A stretch of DNA of 64,000 nucleotides, from NCBI RefSeq assembly GCF_014066305.1, contig NW_023501063.1:62001-126000 (forward strand). Reading direction: 5' to 3'. Every line of letters begins with the position of its first letter. Position 1 is the first letter of the stretch. Position numbers and translations under genes: made by a program. The notes below the pieces were generated by a model. It had not been told where the DNA came from, made no database searches, and saw nothing but the letters and a program-made list of their open reading frames with translations. This DNA is from Letharia columbiana (Eukaryota; Ascomycota; Lecanoromycetes; Lecanorales; Parmeliaceae). This document shows, piece after piece, positions 12,185 through 38,957 of the stretch.

Positions 12185-14725
12185 TTACTTCTTATGCTTC
12201 TCAGCCAAAGACTTTTCGTGCTTCGCCACTAGCTCTTTCCTGCAAACCCAGTCAGCAAGCCCCTCGGACAAAAAATGCAAAGAGGAGCTGAACTTACTGT
12301 AATTGCATAGGCGCAGGACTGTAGTGACTAAATTCCATCCCAAACTCTCCCTTTCCCTGCGTCGCCGCCCTCAACTGCGTGCTAAACCCGAACATTGCGT
12401 TCAAACTGCAATCAGCATACAGCGTGAAATCTTCAGGTCCGATTTCCGTGTCGCTGATCAACGCATTTCGTTTATTCAACAAGCCCACGATGTTTCCTTG
12501 GAACTCATTTGGTGCTGTGATGGTTGTCTTCATTAGCGGTTCGAGCACTTGCGGACGGCCTTGGTTAAACGCTTTGCGGAAAGCTTGCTGTGTCGCGTTT
12601 TTGAAGGCCATCTCGCTGGAATCGGTCATATGTGTTGCGCCGTCGTTGACGATCATACGGGTTCCTAGCACTTTGTGCCCGACTAGCGGGCCTTTTTGGC
12701 AGGAGAGCTGGAAGCCTTTGTCGCATGCAAAGAGGAACTTTTCGGATATACTGCCGCCACTGACTTGGTCTTCGAATTTGTTCTCTTCTAGAGCGCCGCT
12801 GGGTTCCAAGTAACCGACTACTCTGGCAAAATCCCCAGCACCGCCGGTCTGTTTCTTGAGCGTGTGGTCGAAGTCTACTCTCTGTGTTAAGGTCTCACGC
12901 CATGCTACTTGAGGTTGCCCGGTTTCACAGGCGACTCTGTATTCGCGGCGCATCCGCTCCACGTAGATGTCTAGATGTAATTCACCCATGCCGGAGATGA
13001 TGGTTTCTTGGCTTTCAATGTCGACGTGGACGCGGAAGGTAGGGTCTTCACGCTGGAAACGGGCCATTGCTTTCGAGAAGTTCGGAAGGTCTTTGTTGTC
13101 TTTTGGCTTGATTGAGAGGGAAATAACAGGCTCGGGGACGAACATGGATGTCATGGAGTACCCAAGCTGACCGTCGGTGAAAGTGTCGCCAGATGCGCAA
13201 TCGATGCCAAAGACGGCGCAGATCTCTCCGGCGCCAATCTCTTGTACATCTTCCATCTCGTTGGAGTGCATGCGTACTATCCTCGGCACTTTGACCTTCT
13301 TATTGGTACGAGCGTTGAATACATTGAGACCCTTGCGGAGTGAGCCTTGGTAAACGCGAATGTAAGTTAGCTGGCCAAAGTTGCTCTCTTCGAGCTTGAA
13401 GGCCAGGCCGACAAAAGGTAGAGAATTGTAGGAGATGAGCTTGACCGGTGCCTCCCGTCGCCGTTGGTCCAAGGCTAGATTCTCCACTTCGGAGGGATTG
13501 GGTAGATAGTCGCAGACACCATCAAGCATTGGCTGCACAGACTTATCAGCCAGCGCTGAGCCCATGAAGACCGGCGTGAACTTCAAAGATATGGTCGCAC
13601 GTCTGATGGCAGCTTTGATCTGCTCAGCTGACGGTGTCCGCTCATCCAGGAAGATCTCTGCGATCTCATCGTCAACGTCGGCCAGAGTCTCTATGAGCTT
13701 TGCCCTTTTCTCATCCGCAAGCGGCCGCACCTCCGAAGGAATCTCATCCGACTCTCGTACAGTCTCCCCTTTGAGTCCTTCGCTGTAGATAGCCTTCATC
13801 CTGATCAGGTCGACTACACCCTTGAATTCGTCTTCGACTCCAATGGGCACCTGCACAGCTGCTGCGAGCAGCCTAAGCTTATGAGTTATCTGATCGACTG
13901 CTTTGAATGGATTGGCGCCCGCTCGGTCCATCTTGTTAACGAATGATATCCTTGGCACATTGTACCTCTTCATCTGCCTGTCCACTGTGATCGTTTGTGA
14001 CTGGACGCCAGAGACCGCACAAAGTATCATGCATGCTCCATCCAGGACTCTTAAAGCCCGCTCCACTTCTATCGTAAAATCGATGTGGCCGGGTGTGTCA
14101 ATCAAATTAACGTGGTATTTCTCCTCCTTGCCACTCTCGCGCTTGATCCAATCGCAATAGGTAGCGGCGGACTGAATGGTAATGCCTTTTTCTCGTTCCA
14201 GGTCCATTGAGTCCATCTTCGCCCCCACCGCATCTTTGCCTCGGACCTCGTGTATGGACTTGATCCGGCCAGTGTAGTATAGAACGCGCTCTGTGACCGT
14301 GGTCTTTCCGCTGTCGATGTGGGCCTGAGTGTATCCGTCAACCCCGCTATTCTTCCCTCCAAGTAAAGCTTACTCACAGCTATTCCAATGTTGCGGACAC
14401 GAGATAGTCGTTGGGCCTCTTGGGGCGCGAGGTTATCGATGATGGTTTCTTGGGCAAGATTTTCTGGCTCCACTGCTTGCTCCAACCTGGTCCAATCAGC
14501 TTTGAGTCCTCAACCAGTCACCGATACATACACAGCTGCTGCTACACTTGCCTGGCGCCGCTGCTGCCATCGTCGATCTAGAGGTAAATGCAGTGTCTGT
14601 AGGGGGCGGAGGGATGTAGAGGCGCATCTGATCGCATTGAAGCATCCTGACCATGGATAATAAACATTAACTCGTGGATGACTCGAAAGATGCCTAGGCA
14701 CTCTCAATGCACCATGCGGCCTCAT
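12185..14725 (-). CDS. MEF1: Mitochondrial translation elongation factor G (MEF1)
   Basis: GTPase that drives ribosomal translocation in the mitochondrial matrix. Four exons: 14725-14532, 14486-14378, 14324-12298, 12239-12185; introns of 45, 53 and 58 nt; 794 residues, usual for fungal mEF-G1. The N-terminus ([14 protein letters not shown] and an Arg-rich stretch to residue ~55) is a mitochondrial presequence. G-domain motifs: G1 AHIDSGKTT (spanning the second junction), switch [10 protein letters not shown]3 [10 protein letters not shown]4 NKMDRAG. Domain II follows ([12 protein letters not shown]), then EF-G III-V including [18 protein letters not shown] and a normal C-terminal end rebuilt by the last exon ([11 protein letters not shown]). 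Nothing is missing. ATG 14725 is chosen because the longer open frame has no other ATG. Confidence 0.95.
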
Positions 14726-17327: not shown

Positions 17328-19293
17328 ATGTCTACTTCGTTCTTTACATCCTCGATTATCTTCTCGTGCGCAATTCTTCTGCGAGCCATTCTCTTCTTCT
17401 ATGGCCTGATACAGGATAAATACTCTCCACTCCCATACACCGACATCGACTACTTCGTATTCACAGACGCCGCTCGCTACGTCTCCCGCGGTCTCTCTCC
17501 ATACGAGCGAGAAACATACCGCTATACGCCATTGCTAGCCTGGATCCTCCTACCCACCGCACGGCCTGGTGCAGCATGGTTCTCCTTTGGCAAGTTTCTC
17601 TTCGCCCTTGCAGACGTTATCGCAGGATGGCTCATCTTGCTCGTGCTCCGCTCGCCTGCAGGGGGCGGCATGAGGACCGATCGGGCGCTAAAGTTTGCGA
17701 GTATCTGGCTGCTGAATCCCATGGTTGCGACGATTAGCACCAGGGGAAGTTCGGAGGGGTTGTTGGGGGTTATGGTGGTTGCATTGCTGTGGGCTGTGCT
17801 AAGTAAACGAATCATGCTGGCTGGTGTCTTGCTTGGTCTGGCAGTCCACTTTAAGATCTATCCTTTCATCTACGGAGTTTCCATCCTTTGGTATCTGGAG
17901 CCTGAGGTAACATCGATATCTGAGAAAAGCTCCGGTCCCTCTGAGAAGAAGCCCCCAGCTGCCTCAGTCTTGCGATCCCTACCGGCATTCCTCACGCCAT
18001 CTCGCATAATGCTCCTAGCATCTTCGCTTGCCACCTTCCTGGCGCTCAACATCTTCATGTACGCCATCTATTCGACGCCCTTCCTGACCCACACCTACCT
18101 GCACCATCTTACCCGCATCGACCATCGCCACAACTTCTCACCGTACAACACGCTCTTGCATCTTTCTTCAGCCGTCCCATCTGCGACTGGCGCTGTCAAA
18201 TTCGAGTCTCTCGCCTTTATTCCACAACTGGCTTTGAGTGCAGTTTTCATCCCTCTCGCACTGGCAAAGAAGGACCTTGCGGGTACGATGCTGGCGCAGA
18301 CATTTGCCTTTGTAGCATTTAACAAAGTGTGCACGAGCCAGGTACGTCAACAGAAGAATTCCTTTAACTATCCCATCGACTGGCGCCTGAGGCGTAAAAT
18401 GTCTTGGCACGCAGGGCTGAAGCTCTGAACTTTACGTCCTGTCAGTCGATGGGATACGGCACTGCCTTGTCTTGATTTTCGCGCTCATGCCCTGTCCTTT
18501 GCTTGTTTTATTAAAAATGCAGATGCAGGCTTTTTCGCCAATATATTTCACATTAAGAAGATTTCTTTCACATACGGCCACAGACTGTTGAGAACTCGGC
18601 TTCCCGTCCGCTCAGCCAAAGATAAGCCTCAGATCGGCTAATTAGTAGTTGGGTCGGTGACGACCAGCGAATACTAGCTGCTGTATGTTTTTGCATTTTT
18701 TTTGGCGCTTTTGCCCCTCTCAGCTTTTGCGTGGTTGGCGACGAGATGAAATTTTCTACACAGTCTGCAGCCAGAACTCTTGCACGCTCGCTACATTCAC
18801 ATTGAATTTCTGCTTCGATCCATTCGTCCGCACCTCGCTAACACCCCCCTCTTCCCCTGCAGTATTTCCTCTGGTACATGATCCTTCTGCCCTTCTACCT
18901 CCCCCATTCCAGCCTTCTGTCCTCGCCCCGCCTCGGTCTCACCGCCGCAGCTCTCTGGGTCACCGCACAGGTATGTCGTCTTTCCGCATTCCCAACCCCC
19001 GTCCCACTCTCCTGTTCTCGACCCGTCAAAGTAGGGAGGGAGGGGTTTGCTTTGCAGCTGATTCTCAAAATTAGGGTCTGTGGCTCCAACAAGCCTATCA
19101 GCTCGAGTTCCTCGGCAAGAGCACATTCTTCCCTGGCCTCTTCGTGGCGGGATTATCGTTCTTTGTGGTCAATTGTTGGATTTTGGGTATCATGGTTACC
19201 GATATAGGAAATAAACCTTTTTCGAAACAGAAGGCTGAAGGAAAGATGGTAGAAGAGGATCGGGGAAAGCGCAGAGTGAAAAGGGTAGAATAG
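17328..19293 (+). CDS. GPI mannosyltransferase 1 (PIG-M type)
   Basis: Adds the first mannose (alpha-1,4, from dolichol-P-mannose) to the GPI anchor precursor in the ER lumen. Three exons: 17328-18341, 18863-18970, 19075-19293, giving 446 residues. The signature acidic pair is in the first luminal loop (PYTDIDYFVFTDAARYV), followed by SPYERETYRYTPLLAW, characteristic of PIG-M. Multiple hydrophobic helices, a conserved LNPMVATISTRGSSEG and VHFKIYPFIYG block, then FAFVAFNKVCTSQ, interrupted by the first intron, and YFLWYMILLPFYLP in exon 2. The tail is lysine/arginine rich. The first intron, 521 nt, is about ten times longer than its neighbours and holds an inverted repeat; the second is 104 nt. 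Confidence 0.92.
18369..18456. repeat. 14-bp inverted repeat inside PIG-M intron
   Basis: Arms TATCCCATCGACTG (18369-18382) and its exact complement at 18443-18456, separated by 60 nt, within the unusually long first intron of the PIG-M gene. Could be a hairpin in the pre-mRNA or the trace of an inserted element. Confidence 0.6.
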
Positions 19294-33638: not shown

Positions 33639-34219
33639 AGATCTCTTAGTCTCACTCCATTTAGCTCGTAATAGAGAGACAAGAAGCATCAGTAAGTTCA
33701 TTAATAAAAACCTCTTAAATCCAACAATCAGCATCAGCAGAGTAAGTGACCGCCACCTTATATGCAATACGCAAATTACGAGCCCGGTCCATCCAGAGTC
33801 TGATGCTTCAACAGTGACATCGTGGCAGAGAACGTCTGGCTTGACGCCAGCAGGACATTTGCCGTTTTTGGTACTTTATCATCAAAGAGGCAACGTTGCA
33901 GCCTGACAAGATTGTACACTGATTAACAGGAGTAGACAATAGGGCCAGTCAAGCCAATCACGTAGCTGACAGCGTTAGATAGTAGCTCATACCTGTCGTG
34001 AGGCCTAATCCTTCAGCGCTCATATAAGTCAGATATGTGGTGCGCGAACGTAGAGCGGCATTCACTCTAGGCCAGATATAGGTTGAGGCCGGGGCACGTT
34101 CTGATAGCTTGGCACTGGAGTCACTCATCTCCTCGCTCCCACGTCCGCGACTGGCTCTTTGGAGAGTACGAATCGGATTGAAGAATATAAGTTCACAATT
34201 AGGAGAATTAATTTTAGCA
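33639..34219. other. Intergenic before tRNA-Phe
   Basis: No gene recognised. The open frame at 34109-34306 begins with TTG, has no ATG, and runs through the tRNA gene; I regard it as chance. Confidence 0.4.
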
Positions 34220-34361
34220 GCGTCTTTAGCTCACTTGGGAGAGGTAAGTTCGCATCAAGTTAACAATTTACCTATTTGTTCTAACATTGAACCAGCGCCA
34301 GACTGAAGCAAACTTCATTCGTGGAATCTGGAGGTAGCCCGTTCGATCCGGGCAAGACGCA
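34220..34361 (+). tRNA. tRNA-Phe (GAA) with two intervening sequences
   Basis: Acceptor stem GCGTCTT (34220-34226) pairs fully with AAGACGC (34354-34360), discriminator A 34361. D-arm GCTC/GAGC, anticodon stem CCAGA/TCTGG with loop C-T-GAA-G-A, five-base variable loop AGGTA, T-arm GCCCG TTCGATC CGGGC: every stem is perfectly paired. The mature molecule is 73 nt, but only after removing two inserts. One is the normal nuclear tRNA intron, 17 nt (34308-34324), just 3' of position 37, and it contains TTC complementary to the anticodon. The other is a 52-nt insert at 34244-34295 splitting the D-stem between positions 24 and 25. Box A (TAGCTCACTTGG) and box B (GTTCGATCC) are intact, and a T8 run follows at 34364. 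Identity as Phe is from anticodon GAA. Confidence 0.9.
34244..34295 (+). other. Spliceosomal-intron-like insert in tRNA D-arm
   Basis: The 52-nt insert starts GTAAGT, contains TTCTAAC with its branch A about 12 nt before the end, and ends ACCAG. These are the donor, branch and acceptor signals of this genome's mRNA introns, and its length is within their 44-66 nt range. It interrupts GAG|C of the D-stem, not the position where eukaryotic tRNA introns are found. The 5' and 3' borders are fixed by the need to restore the D-stem GAGC and by the GT/AG ends, which agree exactly. Confidence 0.8.
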
Positions 34362-34363
34362 AA

Positions 34364-34371
34364 TTTTTTTT
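34364..34371 (+). terminator. Pol III terminator of tRNA-Phe
   Basis: Eight consecutive T, three bases after the discriminator base, the standard RNA polymerase III stop signal. Confidence 0.85.
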
Positions 34372-34890
34372 GATTTTCTTTCCCTTTCTCCTCCATTCTT
34401 TTTCCTTTTATCTTTTTAAATCGAGTGAGGTCTTGATTTGCATTAATTCGCATGCCGCTCTATATACTCGTGTGGCCGAGAAGTCTATCATCTTGGCAGT
34501 CTAGCTTAGATAGGTTAGCACTGTAGATCATAGGCATAATTCAGTCTCAAACTGCGGAGAAACGAGGTAGTCTGATTGCCCGCGCCGGAGGAATTGCCGG
34601 AACATTATATTGCCGAGTGGCAGCGATCACCCTTGTTGCGCGACATAGCGGTTACCCTAGACTTAATAGGGGGTAATTACGGGGTACATTTCTGTCGTCT
34701 TGGCGTACAAATAAATATGATTTGACAACAATAAGTCAACCAAATCGAACTCACTGTTACTGCTTTCCGAATTGTGTGCCGTCTCTTCTTTTTGGAGGAC
34801 GTAATCACAGTAGATGTGGCTGTCAAGCTTTGAGCTCTTTCATTGAAAATCCAGATCTGTCAGTGCTTATTGTCTCCTACATACTGTATA
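34372..34890. other. Intergenic
   Basis: Upstream of the hydrolase gene. AT-rich near 34370-34450; nothing recognised. Confidence 0.4.
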
Positions 34891-37178: not shown

Positions 37179-38957
37179 ATGGAGGAGTCAAAGATTGTCG
37201 ACTCCAAAGCCGACGAAGAAGCTGCGAAGGATGTTATCGACCAATCTACCAACGTCACCGCCGACCAAGACAGCACTGAAGACGTCGAGTCTACAGACAA
37301 CAAAGACACGGACGTGGTAGCTGCAGGCTCGGCAGCCAAGAAAAAGAAGTCAAAGAAAATCAAATTGAAACAGGCGTTAGGCGTAGGCAAGAAAAATGAT
37401 GAAGATGAAGAGGCATCGGGGAGCTCTTCGAATCCTGCGAGTAAGCTTACGAGCGGAATGGTGGAACAGCTGCTGGAGATGAACCCGTCGTTGAAGGGGG
37501 AGGTGGCTGGCATGGACAAGGAAAAGGCTGCTGAGACTTTGAAGAAGCTAGATGTGGCGGATCTACTTACTGGAATGTCTGTGAGTGGGAAGAATCAGAA
37601 GGATATGGCCTCCTACAAGTTCTGGCAAACACAGCCCGTCCCTCGCTTCGACGAGGCACAAAAAGTGGAAGAGGGTCAGATCAAGGACATTGACCCAGAA
37701 AAGGTTCCCAAAGAACCACCGCCGATGTTGGAGGGGTTCGAGTGGGTTACTATGAATCTCCTGGATGAGAAAGAGCTGGAAGAGGTCTACGACCTTCTGA
37801 CTGGGCACTACGTGGAGGATGATGAGGCCATGTTTCGGTTCAACTACTCTTCCTCCTTTCTCAATTGGGCCCTCAAGTCCCCCGGCTGGCGGAAAGAATG
37901 GCACGTCGGTGTCCGCGCAACCAAGTCACGAAGACTCGTCGCTTTCATATCTGGGGTGCCAGTATCTCTTCGTGTTCGATCGAACGTCTTCAAAAGCACT
38001 GAAGTCAACTTTTTGTGTATACACAAAAAGCTGCGCTCGAAACGCCTCGCCCCTGTCCTCATTCAAGAGATCACCAGAAGAAGCTACGTCCTAGGCATCT
38101 TCCAAGGTCTCTACACTGGTGGAATTGTTCTTCCCAAGCCTGTCAGCTCATGTCGTTACTTTCATCGAAGCCTCGATTGGCTGAAACTTTATGAAGTCGG
38201 CTTCTCTCCCCTACCCTCAAACTCAACGAAAGCTCGACAGATCACGCGATATCATCTACCCAGCTCAACATCTACACCAGGATTGCGGCCAATGGAAAAG
38301 AAAGACGTTGGTGCCGTACTAGATCTCCTTGAGAGATACTTGAAACGCTTCGATATGGCACCTATCTTCGACCGCGAAGAAGTCGAGCATTGGCTGCTTC
38401 ACGATGACAGCGCTGCTGAGCAAGTCATATGGAGCTACGTCGTCGAAGAACCCAGCACACACAAGATCACTGATTTCTTCTCCTTTTACTGCCTTGAGTC
38501 TTCCGTCATCGGTAATCAAAAGCATGATAATGTCAGGGCAGCATATTTATTCTACTATGCTACGGAGACGGCGTTTGCAAAGGAAGAAAAGGGTTTGAAG
38601 GAGAGGATGACAATGTTGATGACTGACGCCCTGATACTTGCAAAGAACGTACGCTATATTTGCCACTTTGGCACCCGGCCAGGCTAACAGGTTCCGCAGT
38701 TCAATTTTGATGTCTTCAACGCCCTTACCCTTCTGGACAACCCACTGTTCCTAGAATCGCTCAAGTTTGGAGCAGGAGATGGCCAACTGCACTACTACCT
38801 GTACAACTACCGGACTGCACCTATATCGGGTGGTGTTGACACCAAGAACAACGTCGATGCTTCCAGGAGAGGTGGAATTGGTGTGGTGATGGTAAGTCCC
38901 GAATCACTCATCCGGATGATTGAATGTATGTTAACCTAATTATGGCAATAGCTTTAA
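37179..38957 (+). CDS. NMT1: Glycylpeptide N-tetradecanoyltransferase (NMT)
   Basis: Transfers myristate from myristoyl-CoA to N-terminal glycines of target proteins in the cytosol; normally essential. Exons 37179-38648, 38700-38891, 38952-38957; 555 residues. A Lys-rich N-terminus ([14 protein letters not shown]) is the ribosome-binding region. Family blocks: [49 protein letters not shown] (myristoyl-CoA site), [19 protein letters not shown], and in exon 2 [14 protein letters not shown]. The C-terminal carboxylate that acts as base is preserved by GIGVVM plus a last exon of only six nt (CTT TAA), giving the canonical VVML end. Introns 51 and 60 nt. Confidence 0.95.

Follow-up and report, generated by a model that had tools for sequence, protein, structure and literature searches.

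Spliceosomal-type introns in tRNA genes of the lichen-forming fungus Letharia columbiana

An interrupted tRNA-Phe(GAA) gene and its surroundings

The window (by which we mean the whole stretch of 64,000 nucleotides that was analysed, contig C28:62001-126000 of Letharia columbiana) holds a tRNA-Phe(GAA) gene from which two segments have to be removed before a tRNA can be read. The gene and its flanking signals are listed below, together with two mRNA introns from the same window.

14325..14377, reverse strand: 53-nt mRNA intron in the mitochondrial EF-G gene, GTGAGT..TTGAC..CAG (protein alignment)
34186..34190, forward strand: TATA-like element TATAA, located 34 nt ahead of the mature 5' end (read from the sequence)
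34220..34243, forward strand: tRNA-Phe(GAA) exon 1, tRNA positions 1-24 (cloverleaf parse)
34227-34238, forward strand: A-box-like TAGCTCACTTGG inside exon 1 (sequence)
34244..34295, forward strand: 52-nt spliceosomal-type intron between tRNA positions 24 and 25 (cloverleaf boundaries and splice signals)
34296..34308, forward strand: tRNA-Phe exon 2, tRNA positions 25-37, anticodon GAA (cloverleaf parse)
34309..34325, forward strand: ordinary 17-nt tRNA intron at position 37/38 (cloverleaf parse)
34326..34361, forward strand: tRNA-Phe exon 3, tRNA positions 38-73 (cloverleaf parse)
34341-34349, forward strand: B-box-like GTTCGATCC inside exon 3 (sequence)
34364..34371, forward strand: T8 run, a Pol III-type terminator, starting 3 nt downstream of tRNA-Phe (sequence)
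38649..38699, forward strand: 51-nt mRNA intron in the NMT1 gene, GTACGC..GCTAAC..CAG (protein alignment)

The initial annotation had claimed that the stems of this tRNA pair only when positions 34244-34295 and a 17-nt intron are taken out. These coordinates are exact, and removal of both segments yields a 73-nt RNA that folds into a cloverleaf with all four stems. The longer segment starts with the 5' splice site GTAAGT, contains a branch-like TTCTAAC (its CTAAC at 34281-34285), and ends with the 3' splice site CCAG. These signals and the boundaries imposed by the cloverleaf argue for the earlier view that the D-arm insert is a spliceosomal-type intron. If the intron boundaries are not fixed in advance, four deletions share the top cloverleaf score of 51, and one of them runs exactly from GTAAGT to CAG. 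The strict combination of a GTAAGT start, CTAAY in the right zone, and a YAG end occurs in a single one of the 127,896 52-nt stretches of the window (both strands), namely the tRNA-Phe insert, and a looser splice consensus fits three of these stretches, the insert among them. A generic splice-consensus scan of the whole window returned 36 candidates versus 31.3 +/- 7.2 in 10 resampled sequences, which does not stand out. As such a motif scan is uninformative, the case rests on boundaries set by the tRNA and not on the motif alone.

A further claim, that the insert has the length and signals of the mRNA introns in the window, is right for the two that were checked (those of EF-G and NMT1). The best named matches of the NMT1 protein are lichen-forming Lecanoromycetes, led by Lecanora helva at 81%. 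An oddity of the tRNA-Phe is its C15/A48, the usual tRNA pair at this position being G15/C48. Elsewhere in the window, the first 4000 nucleotides have a GC content of 26% (compared with about 50% in most of the window) and resemble a mutated repeat region, and a reading frame located there looks, by eye, like a reverse transcriptase fragment.

The tRNA-Phe gene was missed both by a default ARAGORN scan and by Rfam at its gathering threshold, and an Rfam scan of 34100-34500 with E up to 1 gave no match. When long introns are allowed, ARAGORN reports tRNA-Phe(gaa) at the exact gene ends, but with one 51-nt intron instead of two. Since a tRNA finder at default settings missed this gene, other lichens may hide such genes as well.

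Interrupted tRNA genes across the assembly

The initial annotation had proposed a genome search for uninterrupted copies of tRNA-Phe, and only the mitochondrial copy answered. Within the assembly searched (52,243,142 bases in 161 contigs), a pattern spanning the D arm to the anticodon with up to 3 mismatches found no uninterrupted nuclear tRNA-Phe in the 52.2 Mb. It matched only two places, both on the mitochondrial-like contig C94 and both read by ARAGORN as tRNA-Phe(gaa), and this recovery serves as a positive control showing that the pattern search works. Blastn with the joined tRNA-Phe matched only the 3' half of the interrupted gene, and a pattern for that 3' half had the interrupted gene as its only match in the assembly. 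In short, nuclear tRNA-Phe is found in this assembly only in interrupted form, by a search that would overlook copies whose D arm has another intron and copies outside the assembled sequence. Regarding the mitochondrial-like contigs themselves (C94 and C110), C94 repeats the same tRNA block about 90.5 kb apart, as would a circle assembled past its end.

A search for other tRNAs with the same kind of insert, likewise proposed beforehand, added fourteen more genes. At least 15 nuclear tRNA genes, tRNA-Phe included, carry 22 mRNA-type inserts, while 18 of the 33 nuclear genes parsed are without such inserts; the Gly and His tRNAs carry none. The interrupted genes are Phe(GAA), Thr(AGT), Thr(CGT), Arg(CCT), Arg(TCT), Arg(CCG), Lys(TTT), Lys(CTT), Met(CAT, L107), Trp(CCA), Ser(GCT), Ser(CGA), Gln(CTG), Ile(AAT), and Asn(GTT), and they cover ten amino acids. 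The first further nuclear case, Thr(AGT), came from the Rfam search and has GTAAGT..GACTAAT..TTAG in its variable loop. Some genes are interrupted repeatedly: Lys(CTT), a tRNA of only 73 letters, is split by four introns into exons of 10, 7, 10, 18, and 28 nt; Asn has three mRNA-type introns in addition to one at 37/38; and in Gln(CTG) a GT-AG intron and a GC-AG intron flank a 5-nt exon. Ser(CGA) is present twice (on C53 and C81), the two copies being identical in the 152 nt compared and both containing the insert. An ordinary 37/38 intron is also found in 11 of the 15 interrupted genes; the 22 mRNA-type introns lie elsewhere, are about 53 nt long, and carry splice signals. Ordinary 37/38 introns are very common in the parsed tRNAs of this fungus in general, including those for Glu, Gln, Asn, and Ala.

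The inventory combines Rfam matches with pattern searches in which a T arm had to precede a Pol III terminator (a run of T5 or more). The Rfam tRNA search of the genome gave 56 matches, mostly on mitochondrial-like contigs, with 63 of 1723 candidates scored. Left out as mitochondrial-like, weak, or worn were the Rfam matches L034, L040, L041, and L045, plus all those on C94 and C110. One T-arm/terminator pattern had 163 matches, and among the matches listed, up to contig C40, a SINE-like repeat fills much. This repeat has a tRNA-type B box (GGTTCGATTCCTAATGGCGCTGGTACAATGGTGTTGCGGTGCTTTTT) and occurs in dozens of copies on many contigs. From four further pattern listings, all of them complete, 27 of 38, 12 of 31, 3 of 16, and 5 of 15 distinct places were inspected, picked by eye for a tRNA-like 3' end. 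Parsing of the interrupted genes was done by eye, with a script test afterwards. The inspected pattern matches and scored Rfam candidates yielded no Asp, Tyr, Val, or initiator Met tRNA and lacked several isoacceptors, so that 15 of 33 counts the parsed genes and not all tRNA genes. Five loci with a tRNA-like T arm (L088, L092, L095, L104, and L109) stay outside all counts as unresolved. Copies of the other interrupted tRNAs were covered indirectly: each has one matching 3' half in the pattern listings that require T5, except for the two Ser(CGA) loci, both of which are interrupted, and the joined anticodon-to-T-arm part of Thr(AGT) had no match with up to 3 mismatches (a search without positive control).

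An assembly error or a contaminant is hardly credible as the source of these inserts. The 15 genes are spread over 13 contigs, or 14 if the second copy of Ser(CGA) is counted, with lengths of at least 190 kb for those other than C28, and the mitochondrial EF-G of the window shares 100% identity over 98% of the query with Letharia columbiana and L. lupina proteins.

More serious is the possibility, already named in the initial annotation next to spliceosomal processing of a Pol III transcript, that the tRNA-Phe locus is a dead copy with an insertion and that working copies lie elsewhere. Passages of a 2014 review on tRNA introns describe nuclear D- and T-arm insertions outside red algae and nucleomorphs as rare, mostly located in one of many synonymous copies, and supposed to be pseudogenes (PMC4090602). 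The unusual C15/A48 would fit this picture, and part of PMC9146135 gives the L. columbiana assembly a value of 92.0%, taken here as BUSCO completeness, so an intact tRNA-Phe could sit in the missing part. Against a dead copy speak the perfect stems of tRNA-Phe and the failure to find an intact nuclear version, whether by a pattern tolerating 3 mismatches or by a search with its 3' half. The feature is also shared by fifteen genes, which serve ten amino acids and include those for Trp, Asn, and both Lys. Moreover, all 15 rebuilt interrupted tRNAs are complete and reach cloverleaf scores of 45.5-51, like the 42.5-50.5 of 13 intact genes. We regard a dead copy as improbable. With no intact nuclear tRNA-Phe found and fourteen further genes in the same state, spliceosomal processing is the favoured member of the pair. 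The tRNA-Phe insert is, very probably, a true spliceosomal intron in a working and apparently single-copy Pol III gene, belonging to a set of 22 or more such introns spread over 15 nuclear tRNA genes of L. columbiana.

Splice signals, boundaries, and sites of the 22 introns

The 22 tRNA introns measure 49-83 nt with a median of 53 nt, versus 51 and 53 nt for the two mRNA introns checked in the window, and the signals are alike. Their ends are GT-AG in 21 cases and GC-AG in one (GCAAGT), with the 3' end being AG in all 22. Among the donors, GTAAGT is used four times, GTAAGA three times, and GTAAGG and GTGAGT twice each, followed by eleven singletons; GTCGGT, GTAGAG, and GTATTT are weak ones. 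The branch motif CTRAY lies 5-25 nt from the end in 19 of the 22 introns, compared with 6.2% of random 53-mers from the window; when the same introns were shuffled 2000 times, an average of 2.5 of 22 had it, and never more than 9. The wider YTRAY is present in 20 of 22, with the Arg-TCT and Trp introns lacking it. On the exon side, AG directly precedes the intron in 10 of 22 cases, compared with a frequency of 8.1% within the tRNAs (P 3e-6), and 16 of the 22 introns follow a G. Eight introns are located in the D loop, four in the D stem, two in the anticodon stem, one at the border of position 43 and the variable loop, five in the variable loop, and two in the T stem.

Boundaries were also set blind to splicing. 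Our script chose the deletion of 30-110 nt that gave the best cloverleaf, allowing for a 37/38 intron of limited length and leaving splice signals unused; where a gene has several introns, each was tested with the others taken as given. The proposed intron fell within the top tie set in 17 of 22 cases, these sets holding between 1 and 126 deletions (the largest being that of Ser(GCT)). For Thr(CGT), Trp, the GC-AG intron of Gln, the second intron of Ile, and the second of Asn, another deletion scored above the proposed one. Counting end pairs over all 22 tie sets, GT..AG is represented in 17 and the next pair in 8, with a mean of 0.99 for the other 255; in the 11 single-intron genes alone, GT..AG is found in 9 and the next end pair in 5. 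Applied to 13 control B-box sites, the same test gave scores of at most 33 and, for three of them, no solution. The score can overfit, as better-scoring false deletions were found for two intact genes, Ile-TAT and Met L037.

In the reverse test, only segments of the form GT (or GCAAGT)..YTRAY..AG were removed before the cloverleaf was scored. All three positives run were rebuilt, with scores of 46.5-48.5, whereas all 13 control B-box sites stayed at or below 22.5 (8 of them without acceptable acceptor pairing) and the five unresolved loci at or below 21.5. One of the latter, L088, resembles the end of a Leu tRNA, and this signal-only test allowed no long variable arm.

Sister genes allow a direct comparison. 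Comparisons were made with spliced sequences, as two-sequence alignments misplaced the ends around long gaps. The insert of Ser(CGA) is missing from its sister gene Ser(TGA), and the spliced forms match in 78 of 81 nt. Their exons are the same up to GAGCGCAG except for the anticodon base, and at that point Ser(CGA) has an additional 55 nt ending in CACAG. Similarly, the spliced D arm of Gln(CTG) matches that of Gln(TTG), which is without such an insert, apart from 2 changes in 18 nt, the overall match being 56 of 72 nt.

The initial annotation had also entertained an introner-like insertion, i.e., a member of a mobile intron family. A comparison of the 22 introns among themselves does not support this idea: they include no near-identical copies, and the best of the 231 pairs scores 26, a value attained in 2 of 60 shuffled sets.

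Alternatively, the tRNA endonuclease might cut the inserts out at a bulge-helix-bulge, which would make them ectopic tRNA-type introns like those of the red alga Cyanidioschyzon merolae. The resemblance is real in several respects, since parts of PMC3978253 and PMC4090602 report for red algae and nucleomorphs introns outside 37/38, with several per gene and with interrupted A and B boxes. Whereas the C. merolae introns depend on the bulge-helix-bulge and the endonuclease, and many nucleomorph introns are described in these sources as being without a known mechanism, the Letharia inserts carry GT..branch..AG, and cutting at a bulge-helix-bulge would leave their GT..CTRAY..AG signals unexplained. 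A perfect 4-bp central helix is present at the junctions of 3 of the 22 introns versus 3.5 in shuffles, a comparison of low power (control anticodon-loop introns gave 1 of 8 versus 0.8 expected). A point in favour of the endonuclease is L095 (C5:543252-543282), whose insert lacks GT..AG. Taken together, we consider this explanation very improbable for the 22 introns, for which we prefer spliceosomal removal. As to L095 itself, it is a tRNA-like gene whose stems need about 65 nt removed, without GT..AG ends. Its best splice-blind deletion (49.5) is not GT..AG and it has no motif-bearing solution, which means that not every insert in tRNA-like loci fits.

Transcription, proposed order of splicing, and known systems

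The promoter of a tRNA gene, made up of the A and B boxes, is internal. In L. columbiana, the D-arm introns fall within or next to the A box, and the Ser(CGA) and Arg(CCT) introns sit at the margin of the B box, so that an upstream element could carry greater weight in this fungus. TATA[AT] at -50 to -20 was found in 7 of 14 interrupted and 12 of 18 intact tRNA genes versus 3.9% of random 35-mers from the window; Asn is outside this count, its upstream part having been fetched separately, and has TATATA about 37 nt upstream. TATA-like elements upstream of the genes are a further likeness to C. merolae, where the upstream element is likewise noted to matter (parts of PMC3978253).

With 47 of 3742 candidates scored, the genome gave a single U6 snRNA match (L054, at about 919,165-919,380 of C17), which an intron of 53 nt, GTTGGT..CTGAT..CTAG, splits at ACAG|AGAAG. 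A second U6 intron, starting with GTATGT and containing TACTAAT, is likely near the 3' end. The 5S rRNA gene in the window (18570-18689, 76.8 bits) is uninterrupted, so not every Pol III gene here has an intron.

One could also suppose that the introns are spliceosomal but that the tRNAs originate from Pol II transcripts (or lie in an mRNA intron or UTR), in which case no Pol III transcript would be spliced. Spliceosomal introns are, after all, normally found in Pol II transcripts, as passages of PMC8527467 state. However, a TATA-like element is located about 35 nt upstream, as in intact tRNA genes, a T5+ run lies just downstream (a biased observation, since the run belonged to the search pattern), and U6, a Pol III RNA, is interrupted as well. 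A Pol II origin seems to us an improbable account.

From these sequence features, we infer the following order of events for the preferred reading, a spliced Pol III transcript. Transcription by Pol III would start from the upstream TATA element and what remains of the A and B boxes, and proceed to the T-run terminator. The spliceosome would then take the GT..CTRAY..AG introns out in the nucleus, thereby rebuilding the tRNA body, and the tRNA splicing endonuclease, measuring from this rebuilt body, would subsequently cut the 37/38 intron where present, to give a presumably functional tRNA. According to parts of PMC4090602, the endonuclease does measure from the tRNA body, so the D-arm introns should have to go first.

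The class of intron is a known one, and what appears to be new, as far as we searched, is tRNA genes as hosts, several introns per tRNA, and a tRNA supply that would depend on the spliceosome. Spliceosomal introns in the nuclear rDNA of lichen fungi were reportedly described by Bhattacharya et al. (2000), and those in fungal U6 snRNA and U3 snoRNA genes are said to go back to Tani & Ohshima (1989) and Canzler et al. (2016). The lichen rDNA introns, which are removed from rRNA, are similar to ours in being of the mRNA type, in belonging to the same fungal group, and in having as host a non-coding RNA gene that Pol II does not transcribe (passages of PMC8527467). They differ in having rRNA as host, whereas the Letharia tRNA exons go down to 5-10 nt in a 73-nt product that often has an ordinary tRNA intron too. 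The introns of fungal U6 and U3 (parts of PMC5832005) are likewise of the mRNA type and interrupt small RNA genes; U6 is transcribed by Pol III, and the Letharia U6 is interrupted too, but these hosts are not tRNAs, the promoter of which is internal and is where many of the Letharia introns fall. The SRP RNA of basidiomycetes was considered as a further precedent and rejected, as the relevant part of PMC4605306 argues against introns. No report of spliceosomal introns in tRNA genes was found in the open-licence literature, and one may exist elsewhere; in the text of the 2014 review, the string 'spliceosom' is nowhere to be found (PMC4090602).

With the only nuclear tRNA-Phe found and at least 14 other tRNAs interrupted, the cell appears to need mRNA splicing for its tRNAs. 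We think it likely that nearly half of the nuclear tRNA genes (15 of the 33 that were parsed) need the spliceosome, so that there would be no translation without pre-mRNA splicing; that two unrelated splicing machines have to act, in a set order, on many pre-tRNAs; and that the introns were gained in a wave, at proto-splice sites of the AG type within non-coding RNAs, pointing to an RNA-level route (reverse splicing) and not a protein-coding one. Two splicing systems that are usually separate would then act on one RNA. The dependence of the tRNA supply on the spliceosome could offer a possible switch on translation, which may be compared with the proposal that the rDNA introns of lichens slow growth and raise desiccation tolerance (passages of PMC8527467). 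Being short, structured, and non-coding, tRNAs are also clean cases for the open question of spliceosomal intron gain. Finally, exons of 5-10 nt between introns probe the minimum exon size for the spliceosome.
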